Source: Dendrolimus kikuchii (lineage: Eukaryota; Arthropoda; Insecta; Lepidoptera; Lasiocampidae). Taken from it: a stretch of 64,000 bases of DNA. Of this stretch, positions 1-46,000 are shown in pieces. The notes beneath the pieces were generated by a model, which did not search any database, was not told where the DNA came from, and saw only the letters and a program-made list of their open reading frames with translations. The stretch is from the NCBI GenBank assembly GCA_019925095.2, contig CM034403.1, positions 4,097,690-4,161,689 of the forward strand, written 5' to 3'. The position numbers and the translations under genes are program-made. Position 1 is the first letter of the stretch. Each line of letters starts with the position of its first letter.

Positions 1-734
1 AGAATATTAATATATTTTTTTTAATTGTGCATAGAAAATACATTAAATCAATAAAAAAACTTTACACACACTACCATGTATTTGACACACATACGCATAT
101 TATATACTCTTTTATTATTAAAGTCAAATTGACAGTGTAGCCTTGGTGAAATCTGTGATTATAGAACTATAGTCTTTGACAACAGAACCTTAATAATGTT
201 CAATGTTGATGAATGAATGAATGTTCAAATTTATAATTTAAATTAATTAATGTCGAATTGCGACCAATGGGCGACCACTAGTTCAACGACATAGTTCAAA
301 ATGGTTCAACAACATAGTGTCTACTAATGCCTATATTAATTTTATTCAAATTGAAAAGGTTATTTCAAAATAATTTCCACTGGAGAACACTTTTTGAAGG
401 ACTTACATATAAGTTAAAATTTAAATTTACTACCAAATCTACGCATGTACACCGCTTCGCAACGTGTTGCGTGAAACGGCATGAAATTCTCCAGCAACGC
501 GTCTAGTTAAAAATTGTTTTTCTACTTATTTACCTAGCTCATACTTTTTTTAAATTAATTTTATATAGAATTATGTTACACAATTACTTTCGAAGAATTA
601 ATGTAGTTTTAGCAAACAGTGCATGTCTACTCCGTAAGACAAAGAAATTGTACATTATGTATTTTCTAAAAGCATTACAGTTTCATCATTTACTTTGGAA
701 ATAATTCGTTATCGTATGATGTGATATAGGTTTC
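1..734. other. AT-rich gene-free stretch
   Basis: No coding sequence is seen. Around 445-510 there is a short remnant (cgcttcgcaacgtgttgc ... ccagcaacgcgtc) that recurs inside the LINE insertion near 50405-50465 and near 53826-53900, so it is an old piece of a dispersed element. The rest is AT-rich intergenic DNA. Confidence 0.6.
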
Positions 735-2987: not shown

Positions 2988-3481
2988 TGTTACAACTCAG
3001 ATCCCGACAAACACAAAACCCACCTATATATCTGAAACAAAGCACATTTATTACCCGTCGGCATTTGAACTAATAACATTGAAATTCTTTTATGGTCGTC
3101 TTCTTTTGATTACTTATTGGCATACAGCATATTGTTGTATTGTGATCATTAGCCAGGTATTACGAATTTAAAGTACAAGTTCTAGGAAATTCGGTTCACG
3201 CGGCCGGGCGGACATGTTACATCTGTGCAGTATAAAGCAATGACCCGATTGAGGGAGAAGTCAGTTGAGCGAGAACTACCAGCGAAGCGAGACGTGTGTA
3301 CTACAATCGGGAATCTAATAAGTGACGGGTTTTGCACGTGTTATTGAATTACGACCTTCTGCATTACGTTTGGACTTGTGTTCGGTTACATTTGTACCTG
3401 TGTTATACGTGTTTGTATAGTTCTAATAAACTCTATAGTAATTCTAACGGCATTTTAATTCGAGTCTCGCGACTCGTAACA
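2988..3481 (+). repeat. solo LTR (gypsy-like size), sense orientation
   Basis: A 494-bp element starts TGTTAC and ends GTAACA. It has an AATAAA near its 3' third (about 3425). It is the same family, in opposite orientation, as the 484-bp element at 55333-55816; both share the GCGGCCGGGCGGACAT-like block and the terminal region. No internal retroviral genes lie next to it, so it is read as a solo LTR left by LTR-LTR recombination. The flanking tetranucleotides (atat and acat) differ by one base. Confidence 0.7.
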
Positions 3482-22200: not shown

Positions 22201-25200
22201 CATTGTCCTGTCCTGAAAAAATAAGTGTAGAACCCGATTCCAACACCATCTACAAGGTCTAACTGTGAATCTAAACCACCCTAGGACCCACACAAACACA
22301 CAAAAAATGTCATCAAAATCGTAGAACCCGATTCCAGCGCCAAGTATTTTGTTTAGATTGGTGGTTATTGAAGTTTTAGTAGGGATCCCTAATTTTTATA
22401 TAGCCTATATTAATCAGAGATAATGCAGCAATCGAATGGTGAAAGAATTTTTGAAATCGATCCAGTAGTTTTTGAGTTTATTCGTTACAAACATACAAAA
22501 ATTCAAATCTTTCCTATTTATAATATTAGTATAGATGTCACAGAAGATCCAGAGTTTTATTTCAGAAGAAGGGATCTGTTTGTCTACCCCACAGGTAAAA
22601 ACTCGAAAAAACCTACTGGTGACGTTAATAATTAATTTCCTTCTTCACTACCTGCGATAGGTATCCCATCCAACAAACAGATTACCATTCATATTTATAT
22701 CCTCAGCCTATCCTTCTAAGACCCTCCCCACATTTCTACCTTGCATCATTCTTCTCCTTACCGTCGTCCTTTTTATGACCATCTCTTTCTATCTTTACCA
22801 TTAATGTAATTGCAGGCTCATCAATAATGTGCTACGAGTGCAACAGTTCGACAAACTCCCTCTGCACAGAGAAGCATCTCCCTGAATCCTTGAAGAGGAA
22901 CTGTTCAGATCATGACAAGGGGGTAACGCACACGCTCTGTAGGAAAATCATCCAGCACGTTGACTATAGTGTCAATGGGAAGTTCCCTGAGAGTCGAGTT
23001 ATTCGGAGCTGTGGATGGGATGAGAGTAAATTCAAGGTAGTTTTCCTGATTACGTTCTGTCTATATCAAATTTGAGCTGAGCATTTTTTTTTTCAAGGCG
23101 GGGGAAATGCTATTTACGCACAATACTGGGTCCTTTGCAATGGATTAGACCATAGTTGATCATGAAGGCCCTTTGATAAGGAGCAATCCGAACACTAATC
23201 AAGCCAGCATATGTGGAGACTCTGAGAAGTTGCACGGGCAACACTCACTACCCACTAAAACCACCCTCCTCCCATATGCCCCGCGCTTTTTATCTAGGAA
23301 AGGTTGAGACTTAGAACGTAGTTACGCCCAGTTCGATCCAGCGCAAAAAGTGCCTGAATGTGCCCCGGGAATCAGAACACATTCACTTCGTCAGCGGGGG
23401 TGATGAATCCTTTGCTCCCTTGATAGCTAAAGGCCCCCCGAAACGGTATTATTCAGGGTGGGAAGTCATGCGCATACCTGCGTCTCCGGATGCCAGCCAA
23501 CCGCCGGCGTCCGCGTGGAGTCACATTAGTACGCGCAATAATACTCCTCTCCCTATCTCGTTCGGCGGCCTCTTTGAGAGACATTACCGTCTCACAAAAA
23601 GTAACCACAGCCCCCAGGTATCGCTGCTATGCAGCTTGGCTTTCACCAGACTGCAGAGCGAGTCGATCGCTCCTACTTGTGTCTCGAGTTCGAAACGCTG
23701 CGGCGCCCATGCCGCGCACTCGACTAGTGTGTGAAACGCCGTGTCGGATGCGCAGCACTGAGCTGAGCATTATTACGCTAAGTCGTGGTAGCTTAGTGTC
23801 TAATACACTCGTGTCCCAAAATCATATGACGCAAGTGCGGTAACAGCCTAAGGCGCATCTTCATCTAGAAATTAGTGCAATCATCTCGAAAAAACAAAAC
23901 TTTGCGCGTTTCCTGTATTATAAACAGTTTGAAGTCTATCCTTTCTTTCCACTAATGTATTCTACTCTATGCTAGGAATGGTAGGGCACTATAGGCTGGA
24001 AGTGAGAAAGAACTCACAGTTAGGGATATTTATTAAAGTTGTTACGGGATTTGATATCTAATCCCGGCATTTTGAGAAATATAAACTTCTATATACCTGA
24101 CAACTATACCCGCGGTAGGCAATACAAGTTCGCAGTACCGGCCAGTAGGAACTGCTTCTACAAGAACCTCTAACTCTAACCAGGGCTCTTCGGATATTGA
24201 ACCAGATTTGTAAACTGAACACAGATTTACATATTCTCACATGTCCCTTAGAAATTCAAAGAAGTTGTTGTGTTAGTTGAAAGACTGTTGTTTAAAACTT
24301 TTAGTTCAGCAGACTGTAAATCGCTTAGCTGGTGTATGCGCGTATATCTATCTAAAATGGAAACTGCACTTCACTTGAACTATATTTTATATTAATTGAA
24401 TAGCAGATAATATTTCACATCAACAGTTCAATAGCAACTGACAATCTTATTAGACACATGGGTTTATTATAAAATAATTAGGCTTCCATACAGCCAGTGT
24501 CTATGTAGGTTTCCTACATATTCCCAAGGAAGAAATAAGATATTAAAAGAAACATGAATTAACTAATTAACATCAATAGGCAGTAAACAAACTTTTGTAA
24601 TTGATCTTCTATGAATGCTACCATTCTGTACCCTCACCTCTACGGTTCTTACTATACCGTCGGCTCCTGGAAATACATTGATTACCCGAGCCATAGGCCA
24701 GAACAAAGGTTGAACATCGTTTTCAACTAAAATTACTAAAGAACCAGCCTTAATGTTAGGATAATTATCTTGCCACTTTGGCCTACATTGTAACACATTT
24801 AAATAATGTTTACTCCATATTTTCCAAAACTGCTGAAACATGCTGGTACATATATTCCAAAAACTTAATCTATTTATATGAGAATCAGATAAATCATGTT
24901 CTGGATAAGTGTTTAGAGCAGTTCCAATCAAAAAATGACCTGGTGTTAGATATGAATAGTCATTAATGTCTGTAGACAGAGGAGTTAAGGGTCTACTATT
25001 CAAAATTGACTCGATTTGAACCAGAACAGTATTCAACTCTTCATATGTTAATAAAGCCCTCTGCACAACTCTCTTTAGATGATATTTTGTGCTCTTAACT
25101 GCTGCCTCCCAAAGGCCACCCATAACAGGAGAGTAATTGGGAATAAAATGAAAACGTATTCCCTCCTGAGCGCTTTGTGATTGCACCTGTTGTTTGTGCT

Positions 25201-28200
25201 CTTTGGAAGCTAGCAGCTTGTATAGCTCGTCTAATTGGTTCCTTGCTCCCTTGAACGTAGATGCATTATCAGAATATACATCACTGGGTAGTCCACGACG
25301 AGATACAAATCGCTTAAAGCAAGCTAGAAAAGCTGACGTTGTGAGATTTGAAACTAGTTCAAGATGAACAGCCTTTGTAACAAAACATACAAACACGCAA
25401 ATGTAACCCTTACTGACAATAGAACGCCGTATTCGAGCTTGTTTTACTGTAACTGGTCCTGCATAGTCTATGCCCACCCTTTGAAATGGTCTACTCATGA
25501 TAGCTCTGTTCGTAGGGAGGGAACCCATTAGCGCTTTAGCTGCCTGTGCCTTTAACCTAAAACATATGACACAAGAATAAATTACTTTTTTTATTAATCT
25601 AATTCCATTAATGATCCAGAATTTCTGATTTAATGATGACAATACAATTTTTGGCCCAGCGTGTAAATTCTTTATGTGTTCAGTTGCAATAATTAATTCT
25701 GTAATCTTTGACTTAGCCGGTAAAACAATGGGGTGCTTTTGAGAGTGAGGAATTGTTGCGCAATCTAGACGACCTCCTACTCTTACAATGCCATTAGCAT
25801 CAATGAATGGGTTTAATGTCTTAAAACTACCATTTAAACTTTTATTTTGTATGAGCAATTGTGTCTCGACAGAAAAATACTTTTGTTGCTCATATTTAAT
25901 AATTAATAACAAAGATTCGTTTAACTCTTCACTAGTTATGTAATTAAACCTAATTACATTCGAAGACCTTAAATTAAAACAAAAACGACGCACATATGAC
26001 AAAATTCTCTGCATCTTGCTTATACTTGAATACTTATAAATAAAATCTAAACATAAAATACTATTCTGACTTTTACAAAACATGACACAAGTTTCATCAG
26101 TCAAAACGCCAGCCTTAACCTCAGGTAGGTCTCGTAATATATTAGGATTCTGATTAAATTGAGGAGTATACATATGGTTGGACAGTACGAAGGGTCCATG
26201 CCACCAGAGTGAGTGTGAGGCAAGCTCTTGTGGCAAAACACCACGACTTAAACAATCAGCTGGATTTTCTTCAGTGCATATATAATACCATGAAAATCCC
26301 TTAGTGCAACTAGCAATCATCTTTACTCTGTTTGCTACATAAAGATTTAATCTAGTTATTTCAGTTTTAAGCCAGGCTAATACTACTTCTGAGTCGGAAT
26401 ATAGAAAAACGTCTGTAATTTTTAACTGCAGACTTAATATTGCATACACTCTGTGACAGAGTTTGGCTAACAATAGTGCTGCATTGAGCTCTAGCCTTGG
26501 TACAGTAAGCTTCTGACTCAAAGGTCCCTCGATTTTGAACAAAGCCAGGAAATGTTTATGTTACCTTTTTCATCGCTTACACGAAGATATAAACAACATC
26601 CATATGCAGTTGAACTGGCAGCATCTGCGAATCCTATTAATTGAATAGAATGTGTGCCCTGTGGTGTGACATTTCTGTTTACATATATTGGTGTCATATT
26701 AATTAAGTTACTATAAAACTTCATCCAAATGCTATGTAAATCTTTAGGTAATGCAGAGTCCCAATCTAATTTTGCCAACCACAACTTTTGTATAATTACT
26801 TTAGCTAAAACAGTAATAGGGCCTGCGAGACCCAAGGGATCATAAAATCTAGCTAGATAACTGAGTATATCCCTCTTAGTATTTGGTTCAGTATCATGAG
26901 GTTCTGGGCAAGAAATTTTAAATGAATCAGTCTTGGTGTTATAGGTTACACCTAAAGTTTTTAAAAAGTAATTTTCCTTTTGTATGTCTACATCATCAAA
27001 ATGCTGCTTTTCCTTAGGTATATCTCTCAACATATCAGAACAATTGGAAGACCATTTGTGTGCTTGGAAACCGCCAAGACTTAAAAGATTAATTAACTGA
27101 TCTTTCATCTCTTGTAATAATTCTATCGACATGCTAGATACTAAAATATCATCAACATATGTTTGATTTCGCAAAATAAAAGATGCGATAGGATATTCTT
27201 TCTCATACCTTAAAGCTAACTCTAAAAGACATCTTGTTGCTAAAAATGTTGAACACTTAAAACCATAAGTAACTGTGTTTAGCTCTATGCATTTTATATT
27301 TTCAGAAGGAGCTTCTCTCCACAGAATAAGCTGAAGGGAACGATATTCAGGTTTTAAGCCGATACATCTAAACATGCTCTTCAAATCTGTACTGAAAACA
27401 TATGAGCCTAATCGAAACAATAATAAAATATCAATTAAATCTCTTTGTACTGTAGGACCATTTAGCAACAAATCATTGAGACATCGAGACTTACTAGTTA
27501 GCATGGATGCATCAAATACTACTCGACACTTGGTGGTCTTTTTATCTGGTCTCAAAACAGCATGATGAGGTAAAAAATATACTGGATCACAAGTGAAGTC
27601 ATATTTATCAATATTAATATAAGAGCCATGCCCTAGCGCTACATATTCATCAATAAAAGCCTTGTATTGATTGTATAACAATGGCTCTCTCTGTAGCTTC
27701 CTCTCAGTGTTATGAAATCTTTTTAATGCTAAATGAAAAGAATCACCTAACATTTTATTCATATATTTTAAAGAAATCTTTAATGGCAGACTTACTTGAA
27801 ACTTGTTATTTGTAAGTTCTACCGTTTCACGAAAGAAATTTTCACATTGCTCAGACTCTACATTACCTTCTTGAAAAACCTCAGGAACTGCTTCGATTTT
27901 CCAAAAATTTTCCAGATTTTTATTAATTTCGTAATCGCAAGATTTACACATTAGATTCACAATTTTTTTTTGCATATATTGACTTTGTGATATATTAGAA
28001 AAAGTACCCGCAACTACATATCCAAATTTAGTGTTTAAAAAGTGTGAGGAAGATGAATGCTGGTTACTTGATGAGTTGGCTAAATGCTCGACTGATGAAT
28101 CATGCTGTTTACCCGGTAGTATTATCTGAAAAAACACATCAGCAGCCATAAGAATTTGTATGTTACTAGGAATATCAAAAGTTGCGTCTGCTAATGTCAG

Positions 28201-31200
28201 ATTGGGCGGTAATTTAATGTTAACACGACTCTGAGGCAACTTTGTAGTTATTTGTTCAATGACATAGCAATTGATTGGCATACTAAAGGATGAATTGCAT
28301 GAGTGCAATGTTAAATCTACACTTTGACATATTTGCCTTCGAGCATTGCCAATGCCGATTATGCCCCTTTTTATAACTTTCGGCTTTAAACCAAGCAAAT
28401 GCACCAGTTCCGATGTGATGAAAGATGACTGAGATCCACTGTCTAAAAGAGCTTTAGCGAAAATTTCTATCCCGCTTTCAGTGAAGAGCTTCACTCTTAT
28501 TGTAGGCAAAAGTACTTCATTCTGAGAAGGCCCTATAACCATAGCCGCAGAAGGACGCAAAGAGTCCATATGAAGCAGAGTGTTGTGTTTTCCTTTGCAT
28601 TGTATACACTTGAAATGAAAATAACATTTTTTCTTATGTATATTAAGGCATACTTGACACACTTTATTATTCACTGCAAAATCTATACGATTTGCAGGAC
28701 TTAAAAGTTTAAACTCTGGACACTTAAACAGTTTATGCTGACACTTACAATACAAACATGTTGCTGTATCCCTTTGGCCTTCTTGTGCAGTTGCATGCGT
28801 TGCCATAGACATTCCTACCGGTGCAATTCCTACAAAATGTTCTTCCGGAGCAGGAATGGGCCGTGCCATTGAGACCTCCATTGCCCAGGCTCTTTTTTCT
28901 AGAAAGGCAAGTAGATTAATAATAGAGGGTTCCTCTTTCAAATTAAGATGTAACTGATATTCTCTATTGCAAAACATATCAAGCTTCCTACTCAGAATAC
29001 AGAGCAATATCTGATCCCATTTTTCAACAGGCTGACTTAGATTTCGTAAAGCAGCTAATTGTTGCTTGATTGCACAAACAAAGCTTCTTATATTTTCAGC
29101 AGTTGAATTAATTATGGGTGGAAGATCAAGTAAAGTACAGATATGACCATTTATAATCTTGTATTTATTGTCATACCTATCTTTCAAAATAATTAATGAT
29201 TCTGAGTAGCTTTCTCCAATCAAAGGTAAATTTTTTATAAGACACAATGGCTCATCTTGTAAAAAATTCCTAAGGTAATACAGTTTTTGTATATTATCTA
29301 ACCTAGTATCGCTATCGATCAACGAATTAAATAAGCCAATAAAGGTTTTATATTCACTTGACTTACCGCTGAACAAAGGTATTGTTATAACAGGTAAATT
29401 GGCTCTGACATAGCTGTGATTCTCATTAATACTGTTTGTGCATTTAGAAAGAGTATTATTTACAGACATTTGTCGTCGATTTAAAGATTCGCGAATCGAC
29501 GTGAGTGCTTGCAAGTAACGTTCCTCTGTGTCGCTCATTGATTCTGCGTCTGAATCGTCATGAGCAAGGATTTCCATACATACAATTAATAGGATTCGCA
29601 GATGCTGCCAGTTCAACTGCATATGGATGTTGTTTATATCTTCGTGTAAGCGATGAAAAAGGTAACATAAACATTTCCTTGCTTTGTTCAAAATCGAGGG
29701 TAATACCTTTGAGTCAGAAGCTTACTGTACCAAGGCTAGAGCTCAATGCAGCACTATTGTTAGCCAAACTCTGTCACAGAGTGTATGCAATATTAAGTCT
29801 GCAGTTAAAAATTACAGACGTTTTTCTATATTCCGACTCAGAAGTAGTATTAGCCTGGCTTAAAACTGAAATAACTAGATTAAATCTTTATGTAGCAAAC
29901 AGAGTAAAGATGATTGCTAGTTGCACTAAGGGATTTTCATGGTATTATATATGCACTGAAGAAAATCCAGCTGATTGTTTAAGTCGTGGTGTTTTGCCAC
30001 AAGAGCTTGCCTCACACTCACTCTGGTGGCATGGACCCTTCGTACTGTCCAACCATATGTATACTCCTCAATTTAATCAGAATCCTAATATATTACGAGA
30101 CCTACCTGAGGTTAAGGCTGGCGTTTTGACTGATGAAACTTGTGTCATGTTTTGTAAAAGTCAGAATAGTATTTTATGTTTAGATTTTATTTATAAGTAT
30201 TCAAGTATAAGCAAGATGCAGAGAATTTTGTCATATGTGCGTCGTTTTTGTTTTAATTTAAGGTCTTCGAATGTAATTAGGTTTAATTACATAACTAGTG
30301 AAGAGTTAAACGAATCTTTGTTATTAATTATTAAATATGAGCAACAAAAGTATTTTTCTGTCGAGACACAATTGCTCATACAAAATAAAAGTTTAAATGG
30401 TAGTTTTAAGACATTAAACCCATTCATTGATGCTAATGGCATTGTAAGAGTAGGAGGTCGTCTAGATTGCGCAACAATTCCTCACTCTCAAAAGCACCCC
30501 ATTGTTTTACCGGCTAAGTCAAAGATTACAGAATTAATTATTGCAACTGAACACATAAAGAATTTACACGCTGGGCCAAAAATTGTATTGTCATCATTAA
30601 ATCAGAAATTCTGGATCATTAATGGAATTAGATTAATAAAAAAAGTAATTTATTCTTGTGTCATATGTTTTAGGTTAAAGGCACAGGCAGCTAAAGCGCT
30701 AATGGGTTCCCTCCCTACGAACAGAGCTATCATGAGTAGACCATTTCAAAGGGTGGGCATAGACTATGCAGGACCAGTTACAGTAAAACAAGCTCGAATA
30801 CGGCGTTCTATTGTCAGTAAGGGTTACATTTGCGTGTTTGTATGTTTTGTTACAAAGGCTGTTCATCTTGAACTAGTTTCAAATCTCACAACGTCAGCTT
30901 TTCTAGCTTGCTTTAAGCGATTTGTATCTCGTCGTGGACTACCCAGTGATGTATATTCTGATAATGCATCTACGTTCAAGGGAGCAAGGAACCAATTAGA
31001 CGAGCTATACAAGCTGCTAGCTTCCAAAGAGCACAAACAACAGGTGCAATCACAAAGCGCTCAGGAGGGAATACGTTTTCATTTTATTCCCAGTTACTCT
31101 CCTGTTATGGGTGGCCTTTGGGAGGCAGCAGTTAAGAGCACAAAATATCATCTAAAGAGAGTTGTGCAGAGGGCTTTATTAACATATGAAGAGTTGAATA

Positions 31201-33542
31201 CTGTTCTGGTTCAAATCGAGTCAATTTTGAATAGTAGACCCTTAACTCCTCTGTCTACAGACATTAATGACTATTCATATCTAGCACCAGGTCATTTTTT
31301 GATTGGAACTGCTCTAAACACTTATCCAGAACATGATTTATCTGATTCTCATATAAATAGATTAAGTTTTTGGAATATATGTACCAGCATGTTTCAGCAG
31401 TTTTGGAAAATATGGAGTAAACATTATTTAAATGTGTTACAATGTAGGCCAAAGTGGCAAGATAATTATCCTAACATTAAGGCTGGTTCTTTAGTAATTT
31501 TAGTTGAAAACGATGTTCAACCTTTGTTCTGGCCTATGGCTCGGGTAATCAATGTATTTCCAGGAGCCGACGGTATAGTAAGAACCGTAGAGGTGAGGGT
31601 ACAGAATGGTAGCATTCATAGAAGATCAATTACAAAAGTTTGTTTACTGCCTATTGATGTTAATTAGTTAATTCATGTTTCTTTTAATATCTTATTTCTT
31701 CCTTGGGAATATGTAGGAAACCTACATAGACACTGGCTGTATGGAAGCCTAATTATTTTATAATAAACCCATGTGTCTAATAAGATTGTCAGTTGCTTTG
31801 AACTGTTGATGTGAAATATTATCTGCTATTCAATTAATATAAAATATAGTTCAAGTGAAGTGCAGTTTCCATTTTAGATAGATATACGCGCATACACCAG
31901 CTAAGCGATTTACAGTCTGCTGAACTAAAAGTTTTAAACATGGTAATTATCCGTGGACTGTACATCCATAGGTCGCTGGTTCATATCCGGCTCGAAGGAC
32001 CATGTTTAAAACTTTTAGTTCAGCAGACTGTAAATCGCTTAGCTGGTGTATGCGCGTATATCTATCTAAAATGGAAACTGCACTTCACTTGAACTATATT
32101 TTATATTAATTGAATAGCAGATAATATTTCACATCAACAGTTCAATAGCAACTGACAATCTTATTAGACACATGGGTTTATTATAAAATAATTAGGCTTC
32201 CATACAGCCAGTGTCTATGTAGGTTTCCTACAACTGTTAATTAAACATTGTAATTGAATGAAAATATAAAGTAATAAATCCTAAGCAGTTTTCTGACCTA
32301 ATGCGTATTGTTACAATTACTATAATATGATAATATATTCTATGTGCCAAGTGCGGGATAGTCTTAGCATAATGAAGGGTTCCGTAGACATGATAAAAGT
32401 CAGCTGTTTAGTTTGTGTCATTAAACTATGGAACAGTAAGAGTATAAAATCTAAAATATTGCATATATTAAAAACCACAAAAAGGCCTTGTTTACAGCTT
32501 AGACGAATAATCTATTTTGGTCCGAAGTCTATACGAAAAAGGAGACGGATAGGCTTTCATACATCTTGGGCCCAGATTGTAAAGAGATAGATTGATTTTA
32601 AGATTTCTTTTTATTATGTTGATATTTTTTTTTATTATATGAGTTCAGCAAATAGGCAGACTGTCCACGTAATAGTAAGCAGTTACCATCGCCTATGGAC
32701 ATTTGCAACACCAAAGGCGTTAGAAATGCGCTGCTGCTCGCTTGAGGGAGTCTGGAACCTGGCCACTAATGCCGGAACACAACAAGTATGTAATGGCAGC
32801 ATACTCCAGACCAGGAGTCGTAGCGATCCATCCGTGATATATTTTATAATGGTAGTGGGTTTAGTTATTTCGAATGAATTAATCGTGTGGTGTAAGTGTT
32901 TTCAATTGTTGAAATTCATTCGCATAAATAGATAATAATCGATAACTTATTTCATTTATGACCTTATTTTTTAAGATTTCTTGTCTTCAATTTGGGGCTG
33001 ATATTTTACATTTTATAATAGCAAAATATAATGTTTTTTTAAAGCCATATCTCAACTCATTTCATTTCTTTGGCCCAAATGACCCCGTCTCCTTTCGTAG
33101 AAAACAAAGCTATATAACATTGAATTCTTCTGAAGTTCTCCATCCTATAGTTCCAAAGTTAGAGAGGTATTTTACGATTAAAGTAAATATTATGTCCCCA
33201 TTTATTGATTTAAATAAGAGTCAATGTAACACCATTATGTCAACTTTCTAACCTAATACGAATAGAGAGACAAACGATGTGTGAAACCCATTAATGATGA
33301 TGATGATGAGAGCCCGAGCCAACGATAATATGCTGCGATTATTTACTATAGTGACACTTATTATTTACAAGGGAATTAATCCTTTCTTGCAGGGCATGTG
33401 CTACCACAGAGCTGGTTACGGAGGAAGGCAAGAGGTCTGCTCCTGTCTGACGGACTATTGTAACTCTGCCAACAATACCATGATGACGTTCATCTTGTTA
33501 ATCGTCACGACTATAATAACCCTTGGAATGAAACTATGTTAA
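19213..33542 (+). CDS. Ly6/uPAR (quiver/sleepless-like) GPI-anchored protein, gene B
   Basis: Three exons, 19213-19264, 22816-23036 and 33393-33542, joined at GT/AG sites in phases 1 and 0, encode 140 aa. Residues 1-20 form a signal peptide (MKTLICGFIVFCGLFKYG...). The mature domain begins MCYECNSS and has ten cysteines in the same order as gene A, with the shared blocks CGWDES (exon 2), YGGRQEVCSC and CN (exon 3). The C terminus (from about residue 119, TMMTFILLIVTTIITLGM) is hydrophobic, as expected for GPI attachment. Gene A and gene B clearly arose by tandem duplication. Intron 1 (3.55 kb) and especially intron 2 (10.36 kb) are swollen with mobile elements: an R1-like LINE begins 50 bp after the exon-2 donor, followed by the 7.9-kb BEL element and a family A retroposon. 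Long introns may affect expression; nothing in the exons suggests decay. Confidence 0.86.
19440..19860 (+). repeat. dispersed repeats in Ly6-B intron 1
   Basis: tttttgtctgtctgtttgtt, agagcatt... and cccgataaatgacgtcgttt also occur in order at 60720-61040; a related fragment is at 46850-46950. No coding sequence. Confidence 0.45.
19981..20298 (-). repeat. family A retroposon in Ly6-B intron 1
   Basis: Well-preserved full-length copy ending gttcctgcacgga. The acceptor-like TTGCAGGAG seen in intergenic copies reads TTGCATGAG here, so the AG is lost on the strand that is transcribed with the Ly6 gene. Confidence 0.9.
20993..21307 (-). mobile_element. jockey-like LINE, 3' end, in Ly6-B intron 1
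   Basis: T-run followed by ttggacttgactttatgttg and a GC-rich body matching the first 310 bp or so of the larger insertion at 50089-51021. A possible short target duplication CTCTTTAT flanks it (20985-20992 and 21308-21315). No coding part remains. Confidence 0.65.
21346..21645 (+). repeat. family A retroposon, sense orientation, in Ly6-B intron 1
   Basis: Starts tccatgcaggaacggagaga and proceeds through the family body to ctgtctgctgtagtccagc; the poly-A end is lost. Confidence 0.85.
21853..22107 (+). repeat. tRNA-derived SINE with (ATT)n tail
   Basis: The head is tRNA-like, with an A-box-like GTGGTTGAGCG and a B box GGTTCGATTCC (21928-21938) followed by tggcatggtaaatttcgg. The body ends at tctgcaaattattattatta. 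Same family at 34528-34771, 53640-53836 and 735-1160. Confidence 0.85.
22183..22535 (-). mobile_element. non-autonomous Helitron-like element in Ly6-B intron 1
   Basis: The + strand begins ACTAGCGG and ends taatattagtatagat, the complement of a TC...CTAGT Helitron. Internal blocks (gaacccgattcca, taaaccaccctaggaccc) match 58933-59231 and 8627-8912. Confidence 0.6.
23086..23758 (-). mobile_element. R1-like LINE, 5'-truncated, in Ly6-B intron 2
   Basis: T-run, then aaggcgggggaaatgctatt and a body shared with 62322-63240. Flanked by a 13-bp duplication TGAGCTGAGCATT (23073-23085 and 23759-23771). It lies only 50 bp from the exon-2 splice donor. Coding remnants (minus strand) are too short to be useful. 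Confidence 0.75.
24289..24518 (-). repeat. BEL 3' LTR
   Basis: On the minus strand TGTAGGAAACC ... TTTTAAACA, with TG/CA ends, 230 bp. By eye identical to the outer LTR at 32003-32232. Confidence 0.92.
24563..29582 (-). pseudogene. BEL/Pao gag-pol, truncated at the 5' end and frameshifted
   Basis: Two consecutive minus-strand frames (29691-26518 and 26542-24563) hold one polyprotein. Order of domains: partial Gag; cysteine-rich knuckles (CLYCKCQHKLFKC, CQVCLNIHKKKC, CIQCKGKHN; about 28770-28590); aspartic protease with DSGSQ (28443-28429); reverse transcriptase with YVDD (27159-27148); RNase H-like region (FADAASSTAYG, about 26625); integrase zinc region (H/H near 25690-25660, CVIC near 25570); catalytic core with IDYAG (about 25473-25459), YSDNAS (about 25280) and GGLWEAA (about 25120). 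This order and the integrase sequence are BEL/Pao. A 4-base deletion near 26522, relative to the inverted copy, breaks the frame inside the RNase H region. The first ~36 codons of the upstream frame (29691-29583) are a chimeric read-through of the inverted arm, not Gag. It is not expected to be functional. Confidence 0.9.
29583..31667 (+). pseudogene. inverted duplicate of the BEL pol 3' half (RNase H end and integrase)
   Basis: The + strand frame entered at the junction (IQLIGFADAASSTAYG...) runs without interruption through RNase H and the full integrase to the stop at 31667. It lacks the 4-base deletion of the other arm, so it preserves the ancestral reading frame here. Its differences from the minus copy are few: one W/L, one N/S and one T/A substitution at protein level, plus the 4-base indel. 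The open frame extends upstream to 29505, but that part is antisense gag. It has no RT, protease or gag and no normal leader, so it is a by-product of rearrangement. Confidence 0.9.
31712..31940 (+). repeat. inverted internal BEL LTR
   Basis: 229 bp, TGTAGGAAACC ... TTTTAAACA on the + strand. It differs from the outer LTRs by a one-base deletion (gctttgaac versus gctattgaac). It stands head-to-head with the LTR at 32003-32232 across a 62-bp spacer. Confidence 0.9.
31941..32002 (+). other. reverse-transcribed tRNA-Tyr 3' part (not a tRNA gene)
   Basis: Read 5' to 3' on the + strand, 31953-32002 follows the 3' part of eukaryotic tRNA-Tyr: anticodon arm with GTA at 31960-31962, variable loop, T arm 31975-31991, acceptor strand TCGAAGG, discriminator A and a non-templated CCA (32000-32002). 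There is no intron after the anticodon, although nuclear tRNA-Tyr genes normally carry one. The last 18 nt are the complement of the element's primer-binding site. Mismatches to the canonical tRNA lie at positions 58 (A to T, 31984), 37 (G to C, 31963) and 26 (G to C, 31952). Upstream of position 26 the match decays apart from TGGTA at the very edge. No 5' half exists, so no tRNA can be made. Confidence 0.85.
32003..32232 (-). repeat. BEL 5' LTR
   Basis: 230 bp, TG/CA ends, followed directly on the minus strand by TGGTCCTTCGAGCCGGAT, an 18-nt primer-binding site complementary to the tRNA-Tyr 3' end. Confidence 0.92.
32625..32838 (-). repeat. family A retroposon, truncated, in Ly6-B intron 2
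   Basis: T-run then ttattatatgagttcagcaa and about two thirds of the family body; its 5' end is lost. The acceptor-like CAG beside the T-run is absent. Confidence 0.8.
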
Positions 33543-43092: not shown

Positions 43093-46000
43093 ATGGCGAC
43101 TTACTGTCGCGTTGCAACTGGAATTTATGAAGCCGCGGTATCTAATCAGCAATATCAAAACCATAGGTACGTAATTGATTAAAATATATTCTCAATCTAA
43201 AACGCAGTATGTAAATTTAATATACATTTTCTTTGCAGATATAACAATTCATCCGCTCCATCATTTAGTTCTCCACCACATTCCCCATTGGTAGGATTGG
43301 TTTACGACCCATCCTCCTCAAATTATTCTGGACCTGGTATGATAGGCGATAGAAGTGTCAATAATGATAAACGTTCACAAACGTGGTCTACAAATCAAGA
43401 ACCGATTGGTACTGGTGCTAAAAAGAAAATAGTTAAAAGCCAAGACAAAAGAAATACTTACACCGCTGATTCTCGTTACCAAGACCATTACAGAGACAAC
43501 TTTGATAATGATCGTCATAGGAAAGATAGGAATTTAATATCTGAATCCACGTCCAGTTTAGATTTCTTTGTCGAAGGAGAAAGAATGGTATCAGAACTCT
43601 GCAACATATCTGACGTAAGAACTGAGACAAGTACTCAGAAGCAAAATCCAAAACCTACTATCCCAGAAGAGGATAAAAATAAACCATCACCTTCCTCAGA
43701 AGTTCTATTGACAGCTTTAGACAAGATTGTTGTTCATGACCAAATTCCAAACCAAATAGTGCAATTGGCTATCGAAGCTTGCACTGATGCAGAGAACATA
43801 GCCATTGCGCACCATAATAGACCTTGTTTCAAAAATATTCATTCTATTTGCGCTAAAACTCGATCTAATGTACAAAAGCCAGACAGCGCTGTAGCTAATT
43901 TACATTCCCAAGGCATACCGTGGGTTATTAAAAATTTCATATTTTCCTTTGTCCGAATTTTGGATGGCTGGAAGGGTGTAAAAGAACTTCTCAGTGAAAA
44001 ACACGATACGTTTTCTAGAATTGAAAATAAGTATTACAGCCCAAATATAAGGGAATGTTTCGTTCAATGGCAAGCTGTCACAAAAGAAATGTTGACCCAT
44101 ATGTATAAAACTTTTAAATGTCTCGATCATGGCTTTACTATGGAACAAAAAAGTTTTACTCACAACTATTACGCTACTAACTCCAGTGCTCCACGACACC
44201 AGAATCAGAATAAATTTCAATCAAACAAGTCGCACGTAAGTACTCCTAGACACGTGAATGCTTCTCAGCAACAATTCAATGCAATTCAACCACCATGGGT
44301 ACAAAGCCAAGCACAATCGGCATCACAGTCTTATAATGAAGCTCCATGGCCTTCGCGCTCAGGTGTCGCATATAAAAAATTTCCAGTGGTTACACCTACA
44401 AACCCGCATAATTACTATTCATTAAACGATCAAAATGACATGGATACTTTTCAGAAAAATCAGTATAAATGCGACCCATCTATCGCACGTGATCCTAAGC
44501 CTCGTCAGTCATGGACCATAACCAACGTTCCAGACTTCCGCGCTATAGATGGAATCTCTAATACTGATCAGAGAGATCTATACAGTCAATTAAAACATAA
44601 AATGGATGCTGAACTGGGTAAAGCACCTGGGCAACCAATTATTGGCAACATGCCCTGTGATCTTTTACAGCGTAGAGAGATGGAGTTAAAAGCCAAAATG
44701 ATTCCATTAAGCTACGTAGAAAAGTCGTTGATTCCAAGTATGGCGTCAGCGGCAGACATACGAGGCTGTTATGTACAGAAGAACAACAGTTGCGGTGACA
44801 CGAAGGAAGACAATGATTTTTTTGCAACGTGGGGTCAGATAGTCCAAAAAGAACCGAATGAATTTATAACTCATCACACTCACAACATTTCAGTGCCGTC
44901 AAATGTTGTGACGATTTCAAATAATATTTCTGGCCCCGTACAATTTATTGATACTGAAAACGATGAGTTTCACGAAATGTCAAAAGTCTATATGAAACCG
45001 GGAAGCTATAAGGTGCCAATTAAGCCGGCAGATCCGATATCAGCTTTTGTTCAGACTACATCACAAGACCTGGTGTACGAGAATCCCATTACAGATGAAA
45101 TGTCTGCTCTGAAAATGAAATTATCATATCCACATGTGACATTAGCCTCACAGCCTAAATATAGTATGGATTCTTGGCCGTGTTTGATCTCAAGGCGCAC
45201 AGAAGACCTTTTTGGTGAAGATCAAAAGATGTTTCCTCGGCCTGGCATGCCCTGTATTGATATGAAAGTAGACCTTTTCAGCTCAATGACATCAGATCGT
45301 GCATGGGAAGCTGCTAAAGAATCCGCTCCTAAATTAATGGATTTTCTGCATGAAGACTGTAAATCCGAAGCTGCACGATTGTATAATGCTTTAGGTCTAT
45401 TTACTAGTAATAATTATACAGAAGATTTGAAACAGGTAAAGACTGGCATAGATTGTGAAGCCTGGTCAACAGATCTTACACCAGATTATCTTATTAAAAA
45501 TGAACTTTTAAAAATTGACGACCAATCTTTGTTAATTGACGAAACTAAGATAGAACTCGAAACTAAACTTGATGATATTGAAGATCAGATTGATATGGGA
45601 AAATCTGAAGAAATAAAGGAAAATCATCGCTGTCCAAGCTTTGACCACACCGGTAACTGCATTAAGGATGAAACTCAGAAGAAATCTAATGGAAGATCTA
45701 AAATTATTGCGTCTGGTATGTGGTATCACCCAAAGAAGAAGAAACCTTTACCAGCTGCAATTGTCAAAAAGTTTGATAACATTTTAAACAACATGTCACA
45801 TCTTAATGAGGCTGACTTCATACAGCATGACATGGATATAAAAATGGTAAACCTTATTTCACTAGATCTTTCTATACTTTTCTTCCATGTTAACCTTAAA
45901 TTCTTATCTCGGTGAAACAGTTCTATTTTTGTATATACCTATCCTGTTCATCCCCATTATCGAATGTTATTACCATTAGCAAGTGTAATACTTATTGGTT

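Follow-up and report, generated by a model that had tools for sequence, protein, structure and literature searches.

A rearranged BEL/Pao element carries part of tRNA-Tyr

We analyzed a 64,000-nucleotide (nt) stretch of Dendrolimus kikuchii DNA, here called the window, in which the 3' part of transfer RNA (tRNA)-Tyr lies directly beside a long terminal repeat (LTR) of a BEL/Pao-type retrotransposon. The locus comprises a single rearranged element of 7.9 kb on the minus strand (24289-32232), with outer LTRs that are identical over 230/230 nt, end in TGT..ACA and are flanked by ACTGT/ACTGT, a 5-bp target duplication. The element contains two facing LTRs, whose arms (31798-31944/31999-32145 and 31712-31797/32147-32232) match at 100% each. 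The initial annotation had described these as a head-to-head pair; the facing arms are indeed there, whereas the pair does not stand alone, both LTRs being part of the one rearranged unit.

In element order, the 5' LTR is followed by an 18-nt primer-binding site (PBS), 32 nt of tRNA complement, eight unmatched nt and the motif ACCA. There follow an inverted LTR with the inverted 3' internal part (to 29583), gag-pol from the ATG at 29577 and the 3' LTR. Between the inverted arm, LTR copy included, and the direct arm there are three substitutions and two small indels over ∼2.36 kb. The reading frames match Pfam Peptidase_A17 (8e-33) and Integrase_H2C2 (9.8e-6), as well as DUF1759 and DUF5641; the RVT_1 match (2.8e-6, 27.6 bits) falls slightly short of the cut-off of 29.6. 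LTR ends of the TG..CA type and a short target duplication, as for BEL/Pao elements, are present. Judged by its domains, LTRs, PBS and target duplication, the element is of the BEL/Pao type, members of which share LTRs, a Pao peptidase, a reverse transcriptase, an integrase zinc-binding domain, DUF1759, DUF5641, a tRNA PBS and a 5-bp duplication. Unlike the norm for these elements, the window copy carries a second, inverted 3' part behind a tRNA tail. A search with the element's protein against viral contigs found no relative. Because one target duplication surrounds the whole unit, the rearrangement most likely predates integration.

Table 1. Features of the rearranged element, in window coordinates
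Feature	Position	Strand
Target site duplication, left (ACTGT)	24284..24288	.
3' LTR, 230 nt, same sequence as the 5' LTR	24289..24518	-
Downstream reading frame: end of Pao peptidase domain, Integrase_H2C2, DUF5641	24563..26560	-
Upstream reading frame, ATG at 29577: DUF1759, RVT_1, start of Peptidase_A17 (Pao)	26519..29577	-
Second junction: sense gag start meets inverted copy of the 3' part; inverted match unbroken from 29583	29579..29583	.
Inverted copy of the element's 3' internal part	29583..31711	+
Inverted LTR copy, 229 nt, one 1-nt indel relative to the outer LTRs	31712..31940	+
TGGT, complementary to ACCA at 31999-32002; candidate microhomology for the first junction	31941..31944	.
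8 nt without clear tRNA-Tyr match, between end of tRNA copy and junction	31945..31952	.
tRNA-Tyr 58-27 complement (32 nt), candidate plus-strand overextension past the PBS; ends adjoining 26	31953..31984	-
PBS, 18 nt, complement of tRNA-Tyr 59-76 (TGGTCCTTCGAGCCGGAT)	31985..32002	-
5' LTR, 230 nt	32003..32232	-
Target site duplication, right (ACTGT)	32233..32237	.

The 50 nt at 31953-32002 (GTGGACTGTACATCCATAGGTCGCTGGTTCATATCCGGCTCGAAGGACCA) correspond to tRNA-Tyr 27-76, including the CCA. Our reference for differences in the window was the Drosophila tRNA-Tyr probe of PMC4260829, compared end-anchored. The stretch is an intron-free 3' part with CCA, as originally described, and its template may have been a mature (spliced) tRNA. 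The anticodon loop is uninterrupted at the place where a tRNA-Tyr precursor-like sequence has an insert (PMC12025293). The last 18 nt adjoin the LTR and form the PBS, as had been proposed. The window has T for A at 58 and C for G at 37, and further differs from the probe at positions 28, 42, 57 and 59. The changes at 28/42 amount to an exchange of A-T for T-A that keeps the stem paired, and positions 57 and 59 differ among tRNAs. A working tRNA has A at 58, within the internal promoter, and a purine at 37. When the window copy is read as complementary DNA (cDNA), position 58 faces A, position 37 faces G and 27 is the last position matched.

Two parts of the initial annotation need correction. 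It counted C26 as a third misread base; position 26 is instead a copying stop, since the match ends at 27 before unrelated sequence and the ends of 14 other tails (described below) lie at 26-28. It also began the tRNA-related region at 31941, although TGGT (31941-31944) forms the border of the inverted copy and the next eight nt (31945-31952) lack a clear tRNA match. A tRNA copy reaching the D-loop (TGGTA) was considered and dropped, with 2/12 positions matching there in an alignment by eye. ARAGORN predicted zero tRNA genes across the window. The Rfam tRNA model scored 17 bits (E 0.11) on 31947-31999, below the gathering score of 29, as for a 3' tRNA fragment, and gave no match at E 1 on the longer stretch 31800-32150.

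Sister tails end and change at positions modified in animal tRNAs

The window sits on contig C17 of a 705-Mb assembly of 49 contigs, which we searched with window 31900-32050. There were 188 matches, 40/530 candidates were scored, and the sister set was drawn from the best matches listed. It comprises 33 loci (L093-L125), every single (non-array) place outside the window among the matches listed, each with at least 136 bits; these loci were found by their similarity to the window's stretch, and the parser demanded an LTR end. In 33/33 fetched loci, as in the window, an LTR end is followed by the PBS and a tRNA tail of more than 18 nt counted from the CCA. The matches listed thus include 33 further single loci with an LTR-tRNA junction, and the event is recurrent rather than singular.

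The tails end at few places. Thirteen of the 33 stop at tRNA 38-39 and 14 at 26-28, with four at 35-36 and two at 31-32. None (0/33) runs past 26; an extra match at 26 itself, seen in 3 of the 14, is at about chance level. Together, 27/33 ends fall within five positions (p ∼4e-19 versus a uniform distribution over the visible range 39..1).

The bases opposite two positions are also altered. Opposite 58, the cDNA has A at 26 loci, C at seven and the expected T at none of the 33. Opposite 37, the 16 tails counted as passing have the expected C in eight, A in five, T in one and a 2-nt deletion in two; the four tails ending at 35-36 were omitted from this count, as the join may contribute the matches at their ends. 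The 36 other tail positions (76-59, 57-40) differ in 6/1188 cases, giving Fisher p values of 6e-59 for 58 and 3e-13 for 37, with loci treated as independent. Since some copies have A and others C, the stretch is not the product of one faithful template. The ends and errors coincide with positions that are modified in animal tRNAs (58, 37, 26/27), which supports the primer read-through with errors at 1-methyladenosine 58 (m1A58) and 1-methylguanosine 37 (m1G37) that was originally suggested from the window alone: the base opposite 58 is unexpected in 33/33 loci, and that opposite 37 is wrong or missing in 8/16.

Published data on these modifications show similar behavior. Plus-strand DNA synthesis in retroviruses normally stops at m1A58; position 37 and the T loop are minor stops, and loss of the m1A58 enzyme allows passage of 58 (PMC13191261). 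The base misread at m1A depends on the 3' neighbor, being mostly T before U, with little C before A or G (PMC4787781); here the 3' neighbor of 58 is A, and the tails in tRNA sense read T 26 times, G 7 times and C 0 times. In zebrafish, many tRNAs carry N2,N2-dimethylguanosine at 26 (m2,2G26), with m2,2G27 in Tyr-GTA, while m1G37 is found in many tRNAs and m1A58 in nearly all (PMC11417395).

Joining partners and integration

What follows the tail differs at every locus: the next 12-mer is different in 33/33, and the left flanks are all different in the 27/27 examined (L093-L119). Since the bases at 58 and 37 vary, the ends fall mostly at two modified positions and the 33 neighbors differ, the sister tails look like independent copies of a tRNA rather than a shared leader.

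In 11/33 loci, the tail runs into the element's own parts, in a comparison with the window copy's LTR and two of its internal pieces. These parts are gag-pol or pol in sense (L102, L104, L107, L117), inverted gag-pol (L106), an LTR in sense (L100, L118, L122, L125) or an inverted LTR (L105, L124). Among the 23 loci with a full LTR start, four (L094, L117, L118, L125) repeat the left 5-mer directly after the LTR end (T)AAACA, compared with 1/506 in a mismatched-pair control. At L099 and L109, the 5-mer recurs directly at the tRNA end, a looser test for which mismatched pairs give 3/506. At least some tailed loci have integrated as aberrant cDNAs. The fetched tails are mostly ∼350-400 nt, so that the right ends covered are those within this length.

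A model for primer overextension

Considered together, these data very probably reflect recurrent plus-strand overextension into a modified tRNA-Tyr primer, which left signatures at 58, 37 and 26 and was followed by aberrant joining. In this model, reverse transcriptase would copy the plus strand through U3-R-U5 into a tRNA-Tyr that is still joined to the minus strand and, in this species, would be modified at these positions. The normal stop at m1A58 would sometimes be passed by insertion of A or C; copying would then stop at m1G37, or pass it with frequent error, and would halt before m2,2G26. The overextended 3' end would mismatch the minus-strand PBS, apparently blocking normal plus-strand transfer, and joining elsewhere would take its place. 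The partner could be gag-pol or an LTR of the element itself (in sense), an inverted stretch or some other sequence. In the window, the join could have formed through TGGT/ACCA and a few unmatched nt to a strand end that would itself be a fold-back copy of the element's 3' part, with the joined whole then integrating with its 5-bp duplication.

Several observations weigh against this model or narrow its support. The correct base stands opposite 37 in 8/16 passages, and among 12 primer-site copies in the two array pieces there is one, at L127 offset 1340, with the expected T opposite 58. In the counting reference, the expected bases at 28, 42, 57 and 59 come from the window itself. Some of the four tail ends at 35-36 and two at 31-32 may be chance matches at the join. 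Among the matches listed, no tail ends between 58 and 40 and no copy has a plain 18-nt PBS, so that the 38/39 cluster is tested from one side only and no rate of overextension is derivable. Most tails (22/33) continue into sequence that matches neither the LTR nor the gag-pol or pol pieces. TAAACA is present in 12/23 tails, with a duplication after it in only four; L095 has a candidate duplication away from any LTR end, and several other candidates are far off and look like chance.

The alternative that fares best concerns the window's join. Its inverted LTR pair might have been made by autointegration or end-joining after reverse transcription rather than by fold-back, with the tail still an overextension product. 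Primer remnants are known at LTR circle junctions, and the inverted LTR copy, with its U5 end toward the PBS side and eight unmatched junction nt, would fit. We regard this route as possible but less probable than not by a clear measure; it covers the join in the window alone and leaves the tail ends at modified bases in 33 loci unexplained.

A second alternative, which we consider very unlikely, is that the family leader itself encodes an extended tRNA-Tyr complement that is inherited, as in lentivirus-like primer over-extension, 58 and 37 being positions that need no pairing. Over-extension sequences of this kind are described in lentiviruses and spumaviruses (PMC13191261), the stretch is present in other copies and no copy with a normal leader is among the matches listed. 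The initial annotation had set such recurrence behind the 5' LTR of other elements against its own reading; the stretch does formally recur there, yet the copies vary at 58 and 37 and have different neighbors. A shared leader predicts one following sequence, whereas the same sequence after the PBS is not found among family members (33/33 12-mers differ), the bases opposite 58 and 37 vary, and the tRNA position at which the stretch stops differs among copies, being 38/39 or 26-28 in most. L084, in the same genome, has an 18-nt tRNA-Tyr PBS followed by unrelated sequence, though its LTR differs.

Near-perfect inverted repeats are a typical form of assembly or sequencing artefact, but a fold-back read can produce neither tRNA sequence with CCA nor a 5-bp target duplication, and 33 further loci bear the same kind of tail, which makes this origin highly improbable. 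Least probable of all, to the point of being negligible, is a tRNA-Tyr-derived short interspersed element or tRNA pseudogene flanked by two LTR insertions unrelated to each other. Although the stretch resembles a tRNA and recurs in the genome, its CCA abuts the LTR end in primer orientation in the window and 33/33 loci (the parser required an LTR end), and the whole in the window is one unit with a target duplication.

Relation to known systems

One close parallel to the overextension model is retroviral plus-strand strong-stop synthesis, as for tRNA-Lys3 of human immunodeficiency virus 1 (HIV-1), which involves the same step and the same stop base, with minor products ending at 37 and read-through without m1A58 (PMC13191261). 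The retroviral case is known from in vitro reactions and infected cells, with a retroviral enzyme, whereas here the products are fixed in a chromosome, the bases are readable at each modification and there is a further stop at 26. The over-extension of lentiviruses and spumaviruses likewise extends the tRNA complement beyond 18 nt, but that version is inherited and used in transfer (PMC13191261), whereas here it is long, variable and followed by a different sequence at each locus. Signatures in tRNA sequencing also resemble the tails, with a wrong base at m1A, little C before A, and signals at 37 and 26/27 (PMC4787781, PMC11417395). Those come from laboratory enzymes; in our model, the element's own enzyme would have left the signature in vivo.

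The copying step itself is known biochemistry. The set of genomic records, and the role of this step in making defective copies, are new within the literature searched, in which no description of such insertions was found by title and tRNA-Tyr sequence strings gave no hit. To our knowledge, how often m1A58 is passed in germ cells, which base is inserted and what becomes of the product have been studied mainly in vitro and for HIV-1. It is quite likely that such insertions form a fossil record of tRNA modification in host genomes, each sampling one primer molecule and one polymerase; that they hold in vivo spectra of stops and misreading for m1A58, m1G37 and m2,2G26; and that failure at m1A58 is a recurrent mutational route to truncated, inverted and tandem-array derivatives. 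With tens of stored products in one genome, passage events could be counted for LTR elements and primer tRNAs of any kind, and one could ask whether ancestral germ lines had the modification at 58, 37 and 26. That passage beyond 58 is associated with defective copies also hints at what these elements gain from m1A58.

Arrays, other primer-binding sites and small RNAs

Some matches lie in tandem arrays, two of which were sampled in part. L126 (G000:C27:2813900-2815100) repeats a 102-bp unit of LTR end, PBS and tRNA tail, and L127 (G000:C4:28546300-28547900) a like unit of 196 bp; further array rows on C7 and C9 were left out. A tail joined back into an LTR seems to have founded these satellite-like repeats.

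A random sample of the host genome (232 kb, PBS-like sites allowed up to three mismatches) held two PBS-like sites, compared with one in 20 random copies together. One is L084:8738-8755 (G000:C20), an exact 18-nt tRNA-Tyr-type primer site with unrelated sequence after it. The other, L072:3174-3235 (G000:C4), has a different LTR-like end, a degenerate tRNA-Tyr PBS and an in-register degenerate tRNA-Tyr match to ∼30, a match equalled by 11/5000 shuffles; it may record an earlier overextension by another family. Units of 114 bp are repeated in tandem at L072:1-2961 (G000:C4), shortly before the LTR-like end at 3173.

Searches with tRNA-Tyr patterns gave 0 matches in viral contigs. In genome contigs, one search gave 0 matches and another 67 stretches, mostly high-GC bacterial DNA; of these, L033 has an LTR-like look, but no long frame follows within 4.1 kb.

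The stretch also recurs among published small RNAs. Bombyx bmo-miR-2779 (PMC3699532, PMC5091789) is identical to the 3'-terminal 20 nt of the tRNA stretch in the window, with T at 58; the same 20-mer is given for two thrips species (PMC5042526, PMC6053560), whereas G stands at 58 in a small RNA of Ostrinia (PMC4614346). The small RNAs published for other insects comprise the 18-mer alone, without position 58. T and G at 58 in the small RNAs correspond to A and C opposite 58 in the tails, and the small RNAs could derive from tRNA fragments misread during library preparation or from transcription of such insertions. The insect miR-2779 family corresponds to the tRNA-Tyr 3' end with CCA, so its members are probably not microRNAs but tRNA fragments or PBS sequences.

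Elsewhere in the window, an open frame of 904 amino acids (43201-45915, plus strand) has no Pfam match at E 0.001, and a dispersed repeat (family D1), with at least seven copies of 300 nt, extends over 2366-61405.

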